A stretch of DNA of 64,000 nt from NCBI GenBank assembly GCA_018696595.1, contig JABHQW010000002.1, positions 1 to 64,000 on the forward strand, given 5' to 3'. The notes beneath the pieces were generated by a model. The model ran no database searches. It had not been told where the DNA came from and worked only from the letters and a program-made list of their open reading frames with translations. Each line of letters opens with the position of its first letter. Positions within the stretch are counted from its first letter, which is position 1. Positions 48,274-55,268 of the stretch are shown piece by piece. This DNA is from Candidatus Woesearchaeota archaeon. GTDB lineage: Archaea; Nanobdellota; Nanobdellia; Woesearchaeales; GW2011-AR9. The translations under genes and the position numbers were made by a program.

Positions 48274-48903
48274 TCAATACTCTACTCCTCTTCTAGCCAT
48301 CTGGCCTTTATCAAAATAATGTTTTCTGGGCATCATTTCTGTTATTAAATCAGCGATTACTTTTATTTCTTCTGGGGCATCCCGGCCAGTTAAAACTAAT
48401 TCTGTGTGGACTGGCTTTTTCTCGATTAGTTCCATTACTTCGGCAATATCTAATAAACCTAGGGCCATCGCCACATTAATCTCATCCAAAATAACTAATT
48501 GGTATTGTCCTGAATTAACCACTTCCAATGTTTTTTTAAATGCTTCTTTAGCATAATCTTTCTGAATTTCATCATTCAAGAAACAGTAACGGCAGGTTCC
48601 ACAATCAATATCATCACGGATAAAATCAAACAAAGTTTTATCTCTACTTCCTTTCTGACTAAATCCATCAATCTTAAGCTGTTTCTGTTGTTTTATGCAT
48701 GGTCGGCCAAACTGGGCAATGTCCATTTTTGGAAGGTAATTCTTGATAGCAATATATTCTCCAGTGTAAGCGCCACCTTTCATAAACTGAACTACAAAAA
48801 CCTTAAATCCTTGCCCAATTGCTCTCATCCCTAAACCTAGAGCGGCGGTAGTTTTACCTTTACCTTCTCCAGTATAAACATGTATTAACCCTCTTTTAGA
48901 CAT
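48274..48903 (-). CDS. cobO: Corrinoid adenosyltransferase (CobA/CobO/BtuR type)
   Basis: The 209-residue protein has the P-loop HVYTGEGKGKTTAALGLGMR, VFVVQFMKGG, and the Walker B-like LVILDEINVAMALGLL, then LVLTGRDAPEEI and a C-terminal GQMARRGVEY. It adenosylates cob(I)alamin to the coenzyme form. That coenzyme is what the class II ribonucleotide reductase just upstream on the same strand needs. An unusual CGTCRYC insert (Cys101, 104, 107) precedes the Walker B strand and could bind a metal. Element A1 separates the two genes. Confidence 0.93.
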   Translation of the reverse strand: MSKRGLIHVYTGEGKGKTTAALGLGMRAIGQGFKVFVVQFMKGGAYTGEYIAIKNYLPKMDIAQFGRPCIKQQKQLKIDGFSQKGSRDKTLFDFIRDDIDCGTCRYCFLNDEIQKDYAKEAFKKTLEVVNSGQYQLVILDEINVAMALGLLDIAEVMELIEKKPVHTELVLTGRDAPEEIKVIADLITEMMPRKHYFDKGQMARRGVEY

Positions 48904-48926
48904 TGTTATTTTGTGTATTTTAAATT

Positions 48927-49049
48927 ATGAGCAGGGCCGAGTTCGCTTCTTCTATGTAAAATAAGAGTGCGGTTCCCCCCGGATGGGGCTTCCCCCACCG
49001 CAGACTGATGTTTTCTTCTATAAAACGCTCACGAGTTGGCGCTGCTCAT
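48927..49049. other. Intergenic structured element, family A copy 1
   Basis: Outer arms ATGAGCAG (48927-48934) and CTGCTCAT (49042-49049) pair, with partial extension inward. The core TGCGGT (48968-48973) pairs with ACCGCA (48997-49002). It encloses a C4/G4 hairpin around GGAT and a free CTTCCCCC strand. The core is followed by GATGTTTTC. Copy 2 at 53393 has the same layout with paired substitutions (TGTGGT/ACCACA). It sits between cobO and nrdJ, in front of cobO on the minus strand. It has no open frame and no B12-riboswitch box. Confidence 0.7.
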
Positions 49050-49058
49050 TGTATCTGA

Positions 49059-51596
49059 TTATAACTCACAGCTGCCTTTGAATCCGCACTGGCTGGAACA
49101 TTCTGTACAACCACCAATCTTGACCATCACTCCTTCCTTACAAGCCGGACAACGTTGACCTGCTTTTGATCCGTACTCTTCTGAATTATCAACAAACGAT
49201 TCTTTTTTTGTTGCAATATTTTTTTCAATCTCTTCTTCATTTTTGCCTTCTGCGCTAAGAGCATTCTTAGTTTCAGTATCTTCTGAGGTAGATAAAACTT
49301 GTTCTGCTCTACTTTGGTCCACATAAACTGTTAATCCTTTACAGCCAAGATCATAACCCATCTCATAAATTTTCTTAGTTTCCTCTACAGTGAAGCCACT
49401 TGGAACATTAACTGTTTTACTGATTGAAGAATCTGTCCATTTTTGAATTACTGCTTGTGTTCGAACATGATCTTCTGGTTTTAGGTCCATCGCAGCAACA
49501 AAGTAATTTGGGAAAGACCCATCTTCTTGTTTTGCTTCTTCAGCAATTGGAATTAAGACTTTATGGAATCCTAGTCTTGACTGTTGATAATATTCAAACG
49601 CATAGTAGGGTTCAATTCCAGTAGATGTATTTAACATACTGCCAACAGTGCCAGTTGGTGCTTGAGTAGTTAAAGTTACATTTCTCATTCCATTCTTGTA
49701 AATAGTATCTTGTACTTCTTTAGATAACTGTTTAACAAATTCTGATTGCATAAACTTTTCTCGATTATATCTTGGGAATGAACCTTTTTCACTAGCTAAT
49801 TCGCTAGAAGCTAGGTACATCTCTTCAATAATTGTTTTATACAATTTGTCTAAGAAAATTAAACTATCCTCTGCCCCATACTTGATTCTTAATTTGATTA
49901 GCAGTTCTGCCAACCCTAAAGTGCCAGCACCAATTCTTCTTTCTGATTTCTGGTTCTTTTCATTCTCTGCGAAATGATAAGGGGTTAAGTCAATGATGTT
50001 GTCCAAGAATCTAATCAATATGCGGGCAGATTTCTTTAACTGTTCCCAATCCATCTCATAAATCTTACCAATCGGATCAGTTCCAACTTGTTTAGCAAAA
50101 CTTGCTAAATATAAATGTCCCAAATTACAAACTCCCCAGGCAGGTAAACCTTGTTCTCCACAAGGGTTTGTACAGATTAGTTCATTATAATACCAAGAAT
50201 TGCTTAACTTATTGTACCGTTCCATGAACACTACACCTGGTTCGGCACTTTTATGAGCAGAACTAATAATTAAGTCCCATAATTCTCTGGCATTAATAGT
50301 TTTGTAAACTTTTGTTGGGTATCCTTTCTTTTTCCAAGTTCTAACGTTACCATCCCATTCATTTTCATAAGCTTCAAAATTTTCTTCATAATCTGGATAT
50401 TCTAAATTCCACATGCCATTACTTTTTACTTTTTCCATGAACTCATCTGATACTTTAACAGAAATGTTAGCATTTTCAATCATTCCTTTTTGTTTTTTTG
50501 ATCCAATAAACTCAATTACGTCTGGGTGCCAATCATCTAACATTAACATTAATGCTCCTCTTCTCGATCCGCCTTGTTCAATCAAACCAGTAGCGAAAGA
50601 ATAAATTCCTCCCCACGAAACAGCTCCTGAAGATTTCCCATGTACTCCTCTTACAATCGCATATCTTGGTCTTAATGTTGATAGGCAAAGTCCCACTCCT
50701 CCACCTCGAGACATGACTTCTGTTAATACTCCTAACGTTTCTAAGATTCCTCCCCTTGAATCTTTTGGGGAAGGTAAAACGTAGCAGTTATACAAAGTCC
50801 AATTAGAAATTACTTCTCCTCCTTTGCTAGAGGTTGCTCCAGCCATGATTCTTCCTGCTGGTTGGATTCTTTTTTGTTTAAGTTCTTCTAAAAATTCTTT
50901 TTCCCAAAAGTTTTTTCTCTCAATGTTATCTTCTAAGCTGGAAGCAGCTTTAGCAATTCTTTTGTAAGAATCTAATACTGCTTCTTGCGCTTTGTCAACT
51001 TTCCAGATTGATTGGGAAAACTCTTTTTCTAAATCTATTAAATAGAACTTTCCTAATTCTCCTTCTATTGAAAGAGTAATTGCTAACTCTTTTTTTGGAA
51101 AGCGAGAATCTTCTTTTGTGATAACAATTACTAAGTCACCAACACGAATATTTCTATCTTGATCTTTTTGTGAGTATCGGTCTAAGAAAATTAATCTTCC
51201 TAACTTGCTGAAACCCTTAGAATTGTTTAAAATGTGAATTGCTTGGGCACTTAAATAGATGTCTTTACTTAATAAATTGTCTACATTTTTACAATTACTT
51301 ATTGCGGACTCATTTCTTACTAAAGATCTTCTGTATCTATAAATAATAAACTCTTTTGCTAATTCTACGTGTCCTTCTTCAATCAGAACTTTTTCTACCA
51401 CATCTTGAACAATCTCAATATCGGGAACTTCATCATCCATTAATTCTAAATATTCAGTAATCTTATTTGCCAGTTCGTTTGCTAACGGTAAGTTTGGTTC
51501 TCCAATTGATTGTGATGCTTTAAATATTGCATTAGCAATTCTGGAAACATCAAACTTTGTAGCAATTCCATCTCTTTTTTTAATTTGTTCTATCAT
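49059..51596 (-). CDS. nrdJ: Class II (adenosylcobalamin-dependent) ribonucleotide reductase
   Basis: The 845-residue enzyme reduces ribonucleotides to deoxyribonucleotides. An N-terminal ATP-cone (IKKRDGIATKFDVSRIANAI, EIVQDVVEKVLIEEG) provides dATP/ATP control. The barrel has PAGRIMAGATS, NCYVLPSPKDS, GGVGLCLSTLRP, NPCGEQ (active-site Cys and Glu), CNLGHL and TTQAPTGTVGSM. The C-terminus ends with a Cys-rich tail (CPACKEG, GGCTECSSQCGF). Residues about 148-205 (RVGDLVIVITKEDSRFPKKE onward) form a beta-rich insert not usual at this place. nrdR lies 1 nt upstream and cobO follows. Confidence 0.95.
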   Translation of the reverse strand: MIEQIKKRDGIATKFDVSRIANAIFKASQSIGEPNLPLANELANKITEYLELMDDEVPDIEIVQDVVEKVLIEEGHVELAKEFIIYRYRRSLVRNESAISNCKNVDNLLSKDIYLSAQAIHILNNSKGFSKLGRLIFLDRYSQKDQDRNIRVGDLVIVITKEDSRFPKKELAITLSIEGELGKFYLIDLEKEFSQSIWKVDKAQEAVLDSYKRIAKAASSLEDNIERKNFWEKEFLEELKQKRIQPAGRIMAGATSSKGGEVISNWTLYNCYVLPSPKDSRGGILETLGVLTEVMSRGGGVGLCLSTLRPRYAIVRGVHGKSSGAVSWGGIYSFATGLIEQGGSRRGALMLMLDDWHPDVIEFIGSKKQKGMIENANISVKVSDEFMEKVKSNGMWNLEYPDYEENFEAYENEWDGNVRTWKKKGYPTKVYKTINARELWDLIISSAHKSAEPGVVFMERYNKLSNSWYYNELICTNPCGEQGLPAWGVCNLGHLYLASFAKQVGTDPIGKIYEMDWEQLKKSARILIRFLDNIIDLTPYHFAENEKNQKSERRIGAGTLGLAELLIKLRIKYGAEDSLIFLDKLYKTIIEEMYLASSELASEKGSFPRYNREKFMQSEFVKQLSKEVQDTIYKNGMRNVTLTTQAPTGTVGSMLNTSTGIEPYYAFEYYQQSRLGFHKVLIPIAEEAKQEDGSFPNYFVAAMDLKPEDHVRTQAVIQKWTDSSISKTVNVPSGFTVEETKKIYEMGYDLGCKGLTVYVDQSRAEQVLSTSEDTETKNALSAEGKNEEEIEKNIATKKESFVDNSEEYGSKAGQRCPACKEGVMVKIGGCTECSSQCGFKGSCEL

Positions 51597-51597
51597 T

Positions 51598-52041
51598 TTA
51601 ACTTCCTCCTTTAATAATCGTGTTGATTTCTTTTTTCAATATTTCTGGGTCATCAATTTCTTTATGTACAGAAGCGAATCTGAGATACGATATTTTGTCA
51701 TGTTTTTTTAATTCTTTTAAGACTACTTTTCCAATCTCGCTTGTTTTTAATGGGTTCATCTTTTTGTTTAATATTCTCATTTCAATTTTTTTTGTAAGGT
51801 TGGTTAGAATTTCTTCTGGGGTTTTTCCACAAGCTTTACTTACGCTTTCTTCAATTTTTTTTAGGTTGAATTCTTGCTCTTTCCCATCTCTTTTAATCAC
51901 TTTAAAATGGATCTTAGCTTTTTCATAAGTTGTAAATCTGTTTGTACAATTTAAACATTCCCTTCTTCTCCTTATTGATTCATTGAGAAGTCTAGATTCA
52001 AGCACTTTTGTATCTGTTTTTGAGCAAAATGGACAATACAT
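51598..52041 (-). CDS. nrdR: Transcriptional repressor NrdR
   Basis: The 147-residue protein is a full NrdR: N-terminal zinc ribbon MYCPFCSKTDTKVLESR and RRRRECLNCTNRFTTYE, then an ATP-cone (VIKRDGKEQEFNLKKIEESV, ending SYLRFASVHKEI). NrdR senses dATP/ATP and represses ribonucleotide reductase genes. It is mainly bacterial, so its presence in an archaeon is notable. It is the first gene of an operon with nrdJ and has NrdR-box-like sites just upstream. Confidence 0.96.
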   Translation of the reverse strand: MYCPFCSKTDTKVLESRLLNESIRRRRECLNCTNRFTTYEKAKIHFKVIKRDGKEQEFNLKKIEESVSKACGKTPEEILTNLTKKIEMRILNKKMNPLKTSEIGKVVLKELKKHDKISYLRFASVHKEIDDPEILKKEINTIIKGGS

Positions 52042-52065
52042 CTTTTCACCTTTTTTAATAGCGAC

Positions 52066-52112
52066 ACACTACATCTGGGGGTCTTTGTTGTTTTGGTTTC
52101 CCCATCTTGTGT
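52066..52112. promoter_or_regulatory. Tandem NrdR-box-like sites
   Basis: Two 16-bp sites lie 15 bp apart (31 bp start to start). Box 1 at 52066-52081 has the perfect left half ACACTACATCT. Box 2 at 52097-52112 has the perfect right half ATCTTGTGT. The known consensus is acaCwAtATaTwGtgt, and tandem boxes about three helical turns apart are usual for NrdR. The inner halves are replaced by GGGGG and CCCC, which could also pair. The pair lies 25 bp before nrdR, downstream of a TATA-like TATTTAAA near 52140. Confidence 0.7.
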
Positions 52113-52228
52113 TTTCTGTTTTTTAGAAAAATAATTGGTTTAAATACTTTCTAGTGTTATGGTATATATTCTCTAAACTACAAATGTATTCCAATAATCT
52201 TTTAAACCCAAACATTTTCCTTTAACTT

Positions 52229-52747
52229 ATGATTTTAATGTTAATCTTGAAAAGTTTGTATTTCTTTTTGCCAGCTTACCTAGCAAATCTTATTCCACCA
52301 TTGTTGAAGAATGTTCCTTTTCTAGACAAACCAGTTTCAGAAAAACATTTTGGCAGTCATAAAACTTGGCGAGGAATTGTAGCGGCAATTATTTTAGGGG
52401 GATTTGTATTTTGGTTACAGAAAATTTCTTACTTTAATGGGTATACCAAACTTGCTTTAATTGATTACAATGGTTTTTCGGTCTTGTTAGGCTTTCTGTT
52501 AGGTGCAGGAGCAATCTTTGGAGATTTAGTTAAAAGTTATTTTAAAAGAAAGTCTGGTGTTAAACCAGGAGAATCTTGGAAACCGTGGGATCAACTTGAT
52601 TTTGTTATTGGTGCAATCTTATTATCTTTTTTTGTTTACGTTCCCAGAGCGGAAGTGATTTTAGTTCTTTTACTTGTTAGTCCTTTGTTACACATCTTGT
52701 TTAACTTATTGGGATATTGGCTGAAGATCAACAAGAGTGTTTGGTGA
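52229..52747 (+). CDS. carS: CDP-archaeol synthase (CarS)
   Basis: The 172-residue polytopic membrane protein matches CarS/DUF46: PAYLANLIPPLLKNVPFLDK, SEKHFGSHKTWRGIVA, and the cytoplasmic catalytic region GAIFGDLVKSYFKRKSGVKP, then WDQLDFVIGAI. It activates unsaturated archaeol phosphate with CTP, giving CDP-archaeol for polar lipid synthesis. It ends 2 nt from the end of the converging CDP-alcohol phosphatidyltransferase gene, whose product would use CDP-archaeol. Confidence 0.93.
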   Translation: MILMLILKSLYFFLPAYLANLIPPLLKNVPFLDKPVSEKHFGSHKTWRGIVAAIILGGFVFWLQKISYFNGYTKLALIDYNGFSVLLGFLLGAGAIFGDLVKSYFKRKSGVKPGESWKPWDQLDFVIGAILLSFFVYVPRAEVILVLLLVSPLLHILFNLLGYWLKINKSVW

Positions 52748-52749
52748 CT

Positions 52750-53337
52750 CTACGCTTTTCTTATTTCTTTAACAAAATGCTGTAATTGTAAAGCTAAAGA
52801 ATAAACGATAAACCCACCAACAATTAAGTAAGTTGCCGTAAGGATAAAAGTATTGCCAATTGGGTGAAATAAGATTCCAATTGGATAGAACATGAACGGA
52901 ATTAACAAACCGGTTCTTACAAACACTACTGGGTATTCAAATTTAGAAGAGAAGTAAACTAATTGAGTTATAATTAACAATCCTAATATAATATAAACAT
53001 AGTAATCTTGTAAGTACCAACCTAATTTAATTAAAGTTATAATAGCAATTGTTCTGTCTGTAATCAAATCATAATATTGTCCAAATTTAGTTGGTTGAGA
53101 AGCTTTAGCAATTAGTCCATCTAAACCATCGGCAATTAAATGTAATATTGCAAAGACAACAAATAACAAATGGTTAGAGAATAGAAAGTAAACTGTTAAG
53201 ATTCCTAATATTAATGAGATGGTGGTCATAGTGTTGGCAGAGATTCCTAAATCATAGAAAAACCGACCCCATTTTAAAAAATTCTTTTCTTTAAATTCTC
53301 TGCATTTGGCCACAAACTTTTGATTTGAACTTTCCAT
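52750..53337 (-). CDS. CDP-alcohol phosphatidyltransferase family protein
   Basis: The 195-residue membrane protein has the family motif in the form DGLIAK-x7-G-x3-D-x3-D (FGQYYDLITD), which binds the metal and CDP group, and about six membrane segments. It would attach a polar head group to CDP-archaeol or a related lipid. The spacer before the Gly is seven rather than the usual eight residues. The head group (inositol phosphate, glycerol phosphate, serine) cannot be decided. It is oriented tail-to-tail with carS. Confidence 0.88.
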   Translation of the reverse strand: MESSNQKFVAKCREFKEKNFLKWGRFFYDLGISANTMTTISLILGILTVYFLFSNHLLFVVFAILHLIADGLDGLIAKASQPTKFGQYYDLITDRTIAIITLIKLGWYLQDYYVYIILGLLIITQLVYFSSKFEYPVVFVRTGLLIPFMFYPIGILFHPIGNTFILTATYLIVGGFIVYSLALQLQHFVKEIRKA

Positions 53338-53392
53338 CAGAAAGATATATATAACAGAGACTATATAAAAAGTTTCCTATATAATGGCTTTA

Positions 53393-53532
53393 CAGTAAGT
53401 ATAGTTAGCATCGACTCACTCTTTTGTTTGTGGATCTGATTGTGGTCCTCCCCGTAAGGGACGTCCCCCACCACAGAAAGATGTTTAGTCGATTATATCG
53501 TTCGTATATTGATGCTAACTAAACTTATACTG
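53393..53532. other. Intergenic structured element, family A copy 2
   Basis: Outer arms AGTTAGCATC (53403-53412) and GATGCTAACT (53511-53520) pair perfectly, extended by CAGTA (53393-53397) with TACTG (53528-53532). CGACT/AGTCG forms an inner stem. The core TGTGGT (53441-53446) pairs with ACCACA (53470-53475) around a TCCC/GGGA hairpin and a free CGTCCCCC strand, then GATGTTT. Every helix of copy 1 is present with compensatory base changes. It lies between divergent genes, directly upstream of the short dph2. Confidence 0.7.
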
Positions 53533-53543
53533 CTTATAACAAA

Positions 53544-54630: not shown

Positions 54631-54761
54631 CTTTTAATTCTCTCGTCGGGTATTCGACGGATAAAACACGAAAGATTTAAATACCCTAAAGATTTCTCTT
54701 CAGCTAAGAAAAACTTAGTTTTTCCTAATAAAATAAAACAAAAAGAGGAGGGTGATTGCAA

Positions 54762-55268
54762 ATGGCACAAGTCGTAGCAAAAACTGGAATTAAAAAAGAA
54801 TCAGGCTGGCTATATTTTCTTGATAAAAGTGGAAACGTAGCTTGCGCTCAAATGAGCCGAGCTGGAAGAAAAAAAGGTCGAGCAAAGAAAAAAGTAGTAG
54901 CAAAAGTTGGTGTTAAGAAAGAATCTGGTTATTTATACTTTATCGATAAGAAAGGTAATGTAGCTAGAGCAAAGATGGCTAGAGGAAGAAAAAAGGGCAA
55001 AAAGAAAGTTGCTAAAAAGAAAGCTAAGAAAAAAGTTGCTAAGAAGAAGGTAGTTAAGAGAAAAGTAGCTAAGAAGAAAGTAACTAAAAAGAAAGTAGCT
55101 AAGAAAAAGCCTGTTAAGAAGAAAGCTGTGAAAAAGAAAGCTGTTAAGAAAAAAGTTGCTAAAAAGAAAGCTGTGAAGAAGAAAGTAGTTAAGAAAAAGG
55201 CAGCTAAGAAGAAAGTAGTTAAAAAGAAAGCAGCTAAAAAGAAAGCAGTTAAGAAAAGAAAAAGGTAA
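54762..55268 (+). CDS. Lysine-rich histone-H1-like protein with duplicated N-terminal unit
   Basis: The ATG at 54762 follows an excellent GAGGAGGGTGAT site; a BRE/TATA (CGAAAGATTTAAATA) lies near 54669-54684. The first 80 residues hold two copies of a unit V-A-K-x-G-[IV]-K-K-E-S-G-[WY]-L-Y-F, then [LI]DKxGNVAxAxM. About 85 residues of KKxVAKKKAVKKK-type repeats follow, like the tails of histone H1 and bacterial Hc1. It probably binds DNA or RNA non-specifically in chromatin. The strong ribosome-binding site suggests high expression. Confidence 0.8.
   Translation: MAQVVAKTGIKKESGWLYFLDKSGNVACAQMSRAGRKKGRAKKKVVAKVGVKKESGYLYFIDKKGNVARAKMARGRKKGKKKVAKKKAKKKVAKKKVVKRKVAKKKVTKKKVAKKKPVKKKAVKKKAVKKKVAKKKAVKKKVVKKKAAKKKVVKKKAAKKKAVKKRKR

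Follow-up and report, generated by a model that had tools for sequence, protein, structure and literature searches.

The two copies of a structured intergenic element at 48927-49049 and 53393-53532 of the window, by which we mean the whole stretch of 64,000 nucleotides that was analysed, are old insertions of a short mobile element found across the Woesearchaeales. The family to which they belong has the attributes of MITEs, i.e., its members are short (120-170 bp), gene-less, multicopy and dispersed on both strands, they carry terminal inverted repeats and target duplications, and the corresponding sites in relatives are empty. We favor the view, with a probability of roughly 0.7, that these elements make up a MITE superfamily (non-autonomous DNA transposons) with a folded core, which would be moved in trans and whose fold would serve, in cis, the propagation of the element itself.

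Each element is a single long hairpin, imperfectly paired and ~120-170 bp in length. Its terminal inverted repeats are followed, on the way inward, by the stem P1, which varies, by an asymmetric loop that on the minus strand contains a tandem G·A motif, by helix P2, and by the hairpin P3 with a fixed C-run next to it. Copy 1 (48927-49049) lies between the stop codon of a ribonucleotide reductase gene (RNR; 49059) and the start of cobO (48903), both on the minus strand. On the plus strand, to which the coordinates of all parts refer, its P1 outer arm pairs 48929-48938 (GAGCAG..GCC) with 49038-49047 (GGC..CTGCTC), as indicated by folding and by the P1 swap test on the family described below. Its internal motif sets GT-TC-GC (48941-48946), which gives tandem GA on the minus strand, opposite GC-TC-AC (49027-49032), and its P2 pairs TGCGGT (48968-48973) with ACCGCA (48997-49002), both pairings being supported by covariation in the family; P3 is the hairpin CCCC-CGGAT-GGGG (48976-48988, with CCCC at 48976-48979 and GGGG at 48985-48988), and the conserved C-run occupies 48992-48996. 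Copy 2 is an inserted segment at 53378-53543 (net ~165 bp) between the divergent genes for a CDP-alcohol transferase (minus strand) and a diphthamide-synthesis protein (plus strand), with the palindromic element proper at ~53393-53532. The inner part of its P1 pairs GTTAGCATC (53404-53412) with GATGCTAAC (53511-53519), and the arm extends outward to 53393 and 53532. The internal motif consists of AC-TC-AC (53414-53419) and GT-TC-GT (53500-53505) and P2 of TGTGGT (53441-53446) and ACCACA (53470-53475), again with family covariation, while P3 is TCCC-CGTAA-GGGA (53449-53461, with TCCC at 53449-53452 and GGGA at 53458-53461) and the C-run lies at 53465-53469. A sequence-only reading had described the core in both copies, with C-G pairs exchanged for T-A pairs in P2 and in P3 and with outer arms that are self-complementary within each copy and different between copies, and all of this is borne out here. 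Both copies folded better than dinucleotide-preserving shuffles of their sequence, with z-scores of -2.7 and -4.4 on the plus strand and of -2.2 and -5.3 on the minus strand.

The similarity between the window copies is real, and it extends to matches elsewhere by BLAST and by covariance model, so that the earlier count of two has to be raised to 13 for the genome of origin, made up of nine A-type and four B-type copies. BLAST with copy 2 found more copies on contigs C2, C3, C6 and C8, down to E 1e-20, and a covariance model (R1) built from six own-genome copies added others on C7 and C1 plus another on C8; an exact-pattern search within the same genome sees the window copies only, and the family was recovered by BLAST and covariance models. 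The B-type subfamily (L015, L016, L307 and L308, on C2, C6, C3 and C2, respectively) has continuous P1 pairing, TTCAAAATTC/GAATTTTGA, in place of the tandem G·A, with P3 and the C-run the same as in the A-type.

Beyond this genome, the covariance models identified well over a hundred further copies, every one of them in the Woesearchaeales. With R1, at E<=0.01, 16 out of 49 genomes from the same family contained members, the number of copies per genome ranging from 0 to ~44. A second model (R2), built from 41 diverse members, recovered them from at least 19 genomes in a sample of 378 from the class; these genomes belong without exception to the same order and are distributed over 11 families, and the R2 counts are lower bounds, since few candidates per genome were scored. 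The search for homologues by covariance model that had been proposed from the sequence alone thus found relatives in the element's own family of archaea and in the wider order, with helices that covary. The exact core pattern occurred in 48 stretches among 84,980 species genomes, 45 of them in MAGs labelled Woesearchaeota or Nanoarchaeota; the remaining three, in Actinomadura, are not recognized by the covariance model and are taken as chance matches. The same pattern was not found in viral contigs.

The elements are mobile, as is evident from their terminal repeats, target duplications, near-identical multicopy families and empty orthologous sites. Target-site duplications lie exactly outside the inverted-repeat ends in 42 of 102 members, as compared to 1 of 300 controls in which left and right flanks were taken from different copies; they are mostly 7-10 bp long, most of them measuring 9 bp where the ends are GGCTCTGT-like and 8 bp where they are GTAATACTT. 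In one Woesearchaeota MAG (G001), which has ~44 copies, the element is a 168-bp unit with the ends GTAATACTTTAG...CTAAAGTATTAC, and many of its insertion sites, which are unrelated to one another, show exact 8-bp target duplications. The earlier reading was not right in setting a selected fold against a simple repeat, as the flanking duplications that it had named as contrary evidence are present in relatives. One 88-bp derivative in G022 (L272:2225-2313) consists of ends and P1 without a core, with the 9-bp duplication CGACATAGC alongside, and its core may have been lost after insertion.

In the other two genomes of this genus, G013 and G014, neither of the sites orthologous to those of the window copies is occupied. 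The interval between RNR and cobO measures 155 bp in the window vs 40-41 bp in these relatives (~115 bp longer in the window), and that between the CDP-alcohol transferase and diphthamide-synthesis genes 206 bp vs 40-41 bp; the empty sequence at the second site is CAGAAAGATATATATAACAGAGACTATATAAAAACTTTCCG in G014 and near-identical in G013, and the promoter region to the left of the insertion has been kept in the sister genomes except for single changes. The own-genome copies have arms and lack a recognized type of terminal repeat, and when the flanks of the window copies and of the other own-genome copies were inspected, no clear target duplication was found at any of them, so that for these copies mobility rests on kinship with the rest of the family and on the empty sites. 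The sequence-only reading had leaned toward a housekeeping ncRNA or riboswitch-like cis-regulator, as might be suggested by compensatory changes in an element that lies upstream of cobO and of the CDP-alcohol transferase gene. Target duplications and empty orthologous sites largely refute that explanation, and a family whose copy number ranges from 0 to ~44 per genome and which shows no preferred orientation to neighboring genes (20 vs 19 at tandem sites) also speaks against it. We consider it very improbable and, because the elements are mobile, place them in a MITE superfamily rather than among riboswitches or housekeeping ncRNAs.

A recognized repeat type is present at both ends of 44 of the 102 members, and one and the same core is carried by at least three end types, i.e., GGCTCTGTNNNAAA/GGTTGKTGCGAAA/GGCTTCATCCAA (mostly with 9-bp duplications), GTAATACTTYAG (8 bp) and GTATTTAGT-like. 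Different ends can even be found on the same core inside one genome (G008, where L093 has a 9-bp duplication and L252 and L253 have 8-bp duplications). With two or more lengths of duplication and at least three kinds of ends around one core, the fold is kept independently of the ends, and the 8-bp and 9-bp duplications would point to at least two kinds of DDE transposase. A search with PF13610, PF01609 and end-sequence patterns yielded no autonomous partner with matching ends. Transposases of the IS6 (PF13610) and DDE_Tnp_1 (PF01609) types were rejected as partners, as matching ends were present at no locus; a repeat end following a transposase ORF on contig C33 of G008 is wrongly oriented and lies where the contig stops; and the 20 loci with solo GGCTCTGT ends are MITEs or decayed copies that have no transposase between the ends. 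The IS903 group of the IS5 family generates 9-bp duplications and has ends resembling GGCTxTGTxxxAAA, and the likeness of our elements to this group in duplications and ends is a lead only, no transposase with matching ends having been found here.

Mobilization by a Y1 transposase that recognizes imperfect hairpins, as in elements of the IS200/IS605 type, would be another way to account for solo, gene-less copies with an imperfect hairpin and conserved mismatches. Elements derived from IS200/IS605, such as PATE and REP, are dispersed imperfect hairpins without a gene, and in this respect they are like the family described here; the target duplications and long inverted-repeat ends of the latter set the two apart. 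Y1 elements are not known to generate target duplications, and the presence of duplications at the inverted-repeat ends makes this explanation very unlikely. The attC sites of integrons lie in tandem arrays next to an integrase, and the copies observed here are scattered over both strands. Two observations on ends and their surroundings may be added. Two MITEs in G023 (L261:2160-2334 and L263:2189-2339) have the same GGCTCTGTAGAAAA ends around another palindromic interior, GTCGCCTTGGCC...GGCCTAGGCGGCGAC, and are possibly a sister family that uses the same transposase. Many elements of the GGCTCTGT type (e.g., L215, L216 and L219) have the motif CTTCGCTCGGG in the 5' outer loop between terminal repeat and P1, in three same-direction copies per element, and this motif is similar to the TCGCTC of the inner loops.

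P1, P2, P3 and the internal motif all covary. Among the 102 aligned members, 88.5% of the cells in P2 and P3 are paired vs 72.8% after shuffling, and the covariation score for these helices is 0.49 vs 0.20 shuffled (reached in 0 of 500 shuffles), with slid partners giving 0.07-0.15. In the P1 swap test, arms folded with their own partners had a mean of -17.6 kcal/mol as compared to -8.3 kcal/mol with the arms of other members (0/2000). The internal motif, which had escaped notice in the sequence-only reading, has the plus-strand form y2y1-TC-z1z2 opposite z2'z1'-TC-y1'y2'; at the four positions that flank it, Watson-Crick pairs occur in 84-90% of members vs 42-63% when shuffled (0/500 for each). 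On the minus strand the motif is a tandem 5'-Y-GA-R-3' on both sides, a context found in 63/63 and 62/63 cases on sides that had not been selected by the search, and one that favors sheared tandem G·A pairs in RNA and DNA alike. In some subfamilies (L197, L199 and the B-type copies) the tandem G·A motif has been swapped for continuous pairing. The fold is thus under selection, since the compensatory changes are real and are seen in the family as a whole.

Compensatory change could in principle be produced by mutation rather than by selection, i.e., these could be plain MITEs in which the palindrome is maintained by templated repair of quasi-palindromes and the core fold is unselected. The elements are near-palindromic along their whole length, paired changes can arise by template switching in hairpins, and a neutral decay of single copies is apparent; all of this would be expected of such a bias. 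What it leaves unaccounted for is the conservation over 11 families of core sequences that do not pair, namely the C-run, the Y-GA-R motif and an asymmetric AAATT loop, and the persistence of TC/TC mismatches, which templated repair would make paired. We therefore regard an origin by mutation bias as unlikely and retain the reading of a MITE with a selected core. An earlier suggestion that the C-run competes for the G-run finds no support: the CCCC is constant whether P3 reads GGGG, GGGA, GGAG or GGAA, so that the C-run does not covary with the G-run, though C-run/G-run pairing is sometimes used in single-sequence folds. Two familiar motifs were considered and rejected as descriptions of the core. 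A GNRA tetraloop is not a fixed feature, as the loops vary (GTAA, GGAT, GTGA, GTAG, GAA), and a kink-turn does not fit an arrangement in which two Watson-Crick pairs separate the asymmetric loop from the GA motif with no directly adjacent three-base bulge. In ten members (L104, L105, L112, L149, L195, L249, L250, L267, L268 and L270) the P3 tip is extended or replaced by at least one extra hairpin of ~30-150 bp, in the same place in the fold every time.

Whether the fold acts as RNA or as DNA is a separate matter, and selection on a fold, as had been proposed from the two copies, finds more support in the family than does its proposed RNA nature. Mismatches within the helices are almost equally divided between G·T and A·C (13 vs 11 in P2 and 33 vs 28 in P1; a tRNA control of 24 pairs is too small for comparison), and the elements show no preferred orientation to neighboring genes, with 31 at divergent, 39 at tandem (split 20/19) and 7 at convergent sites. 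The near parity of G·T and A·C and the lack of an orientation preference leave a strand-specific role as a host cis-RNA unsupported, and the depletion of convergent sites (7) rules against a terminator. The tandem G·A motif can be understood only as a feature of the minus strand, and that strand is slightly the stabler (by a mean of -2.1 kcal/mol, in 55 of 88 cases, vs -0.8 for flanks). It is possible, though we hold it with no great confidence, that the core is a structured RNA carried by the MITE and transcribed with it, which would bind the transposase or its message or would make insertions harmless by serving as an insulator or mRNA processing site. The strong covariation of P2, P3 and the internal motif, the presence on one strand only of a tandem GA in the Y-GA-R context typical of RNA motifs, and the stability of the minus strand would all agree with such an RNA, and stem-loops are known from the transcripts of prokaryotic MITEs, some of which are cut by RNase III (PMC10969869). 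The mismatch parity, the symmetric orientation to neighboring genes with its rarity of convergent sites, and the fact that no Rfam match was obtained at either the gathering or a low threshold point the other way. The parity could also result from neutral decay of single copies, in which case the active master copies may still work as RNA.

In the MITE reading that we prefer, DDE transposases acting on the terminal repeats would move the elements in trans. The folded core, most likely folding on the minus strand, might be retained for a cis role in propagation, either as a DNA hairpin or as a transcribed RNA, and would serve no host regulatory function at each site; we put the odds that the fold is kept for propagation of the element rather than for host regulation at about even. 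A bolder version, which we offer tentatively, is that the core is a selfish structured module. Throughout an archaeal order, compensatory change would have preserved its fold even as the transposon ends, and with them the transposase, were exchanged, because a factor that recognizes the fold, as DNA hairpin or as RNA, promotes its spread whatever the transposase.

The two insertions adjoin genes for cofactor, DNA-precursor, lipid and translation-factor enzymes, the expression of which they may change. Insertion 1 splits RNR from cobO within a single minus-strand cluster (48274-52041) of nrdR, an ATP-cone ribonucleotide reductase and cobO (corrinoid adenosyltransferase). Insertion 2 has the conserved promoter region on one side and the start codon for diphthamide synthesis on the other, so that it may now form a leader of the diphthamide-synthesis gene. 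Two TATA-like boxes to its left (53345-53371) are conserved in sister species, and the insertion separates one of them from the diphthamide-synthesis gene. Farther along (54756-55268), the window encodes a protein whose tail is a very long series of lysine/alanine repeats (KKKVAKKK) and which presumably binds nucleic acid.

Prokaryotic MITEs, e.g., QMITE2, Correia elements and RUP, have been reviewed (PMC10969869), and the present family is like them in being short, gene-less and intergenic, with terminal inverted repeats, 7-10 bp duplications and predicted palindromic transcripts. Unlike the MITEs covered in that review, it is conserved over an order in its core rather than at its ends, with covariation in the inner helices; the non-Watson-Crick motif and exchanged ends set it apart from prokaryotic MITEs in general. 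The BOX elements of Streptococcus pneumoniae, as described in the same review and as generally understood, are also modular structured repeats with a variable central part, comparable to the expanded P3 tip here. They differ from the archaeal elements, which are unrelated in sequence and have clear target duplications and a conserved central core with interchangeable ends. In the literature that we searched, no paper deals with MITEs in DPANN archaea and none joins the Woesearchaeales with insertion sequences. Strong compensatory change is commonly accepted as proof of a functional RNA gene, and it can also mark a transposable element, which may mislead the search for ncRNAs in metagenome-assembled archaea. 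The conserved folded middle probably matters for the element's spread, and a MITE that is conserved in its folded middle instead of at its ends raises a testable question: what reads the fold?
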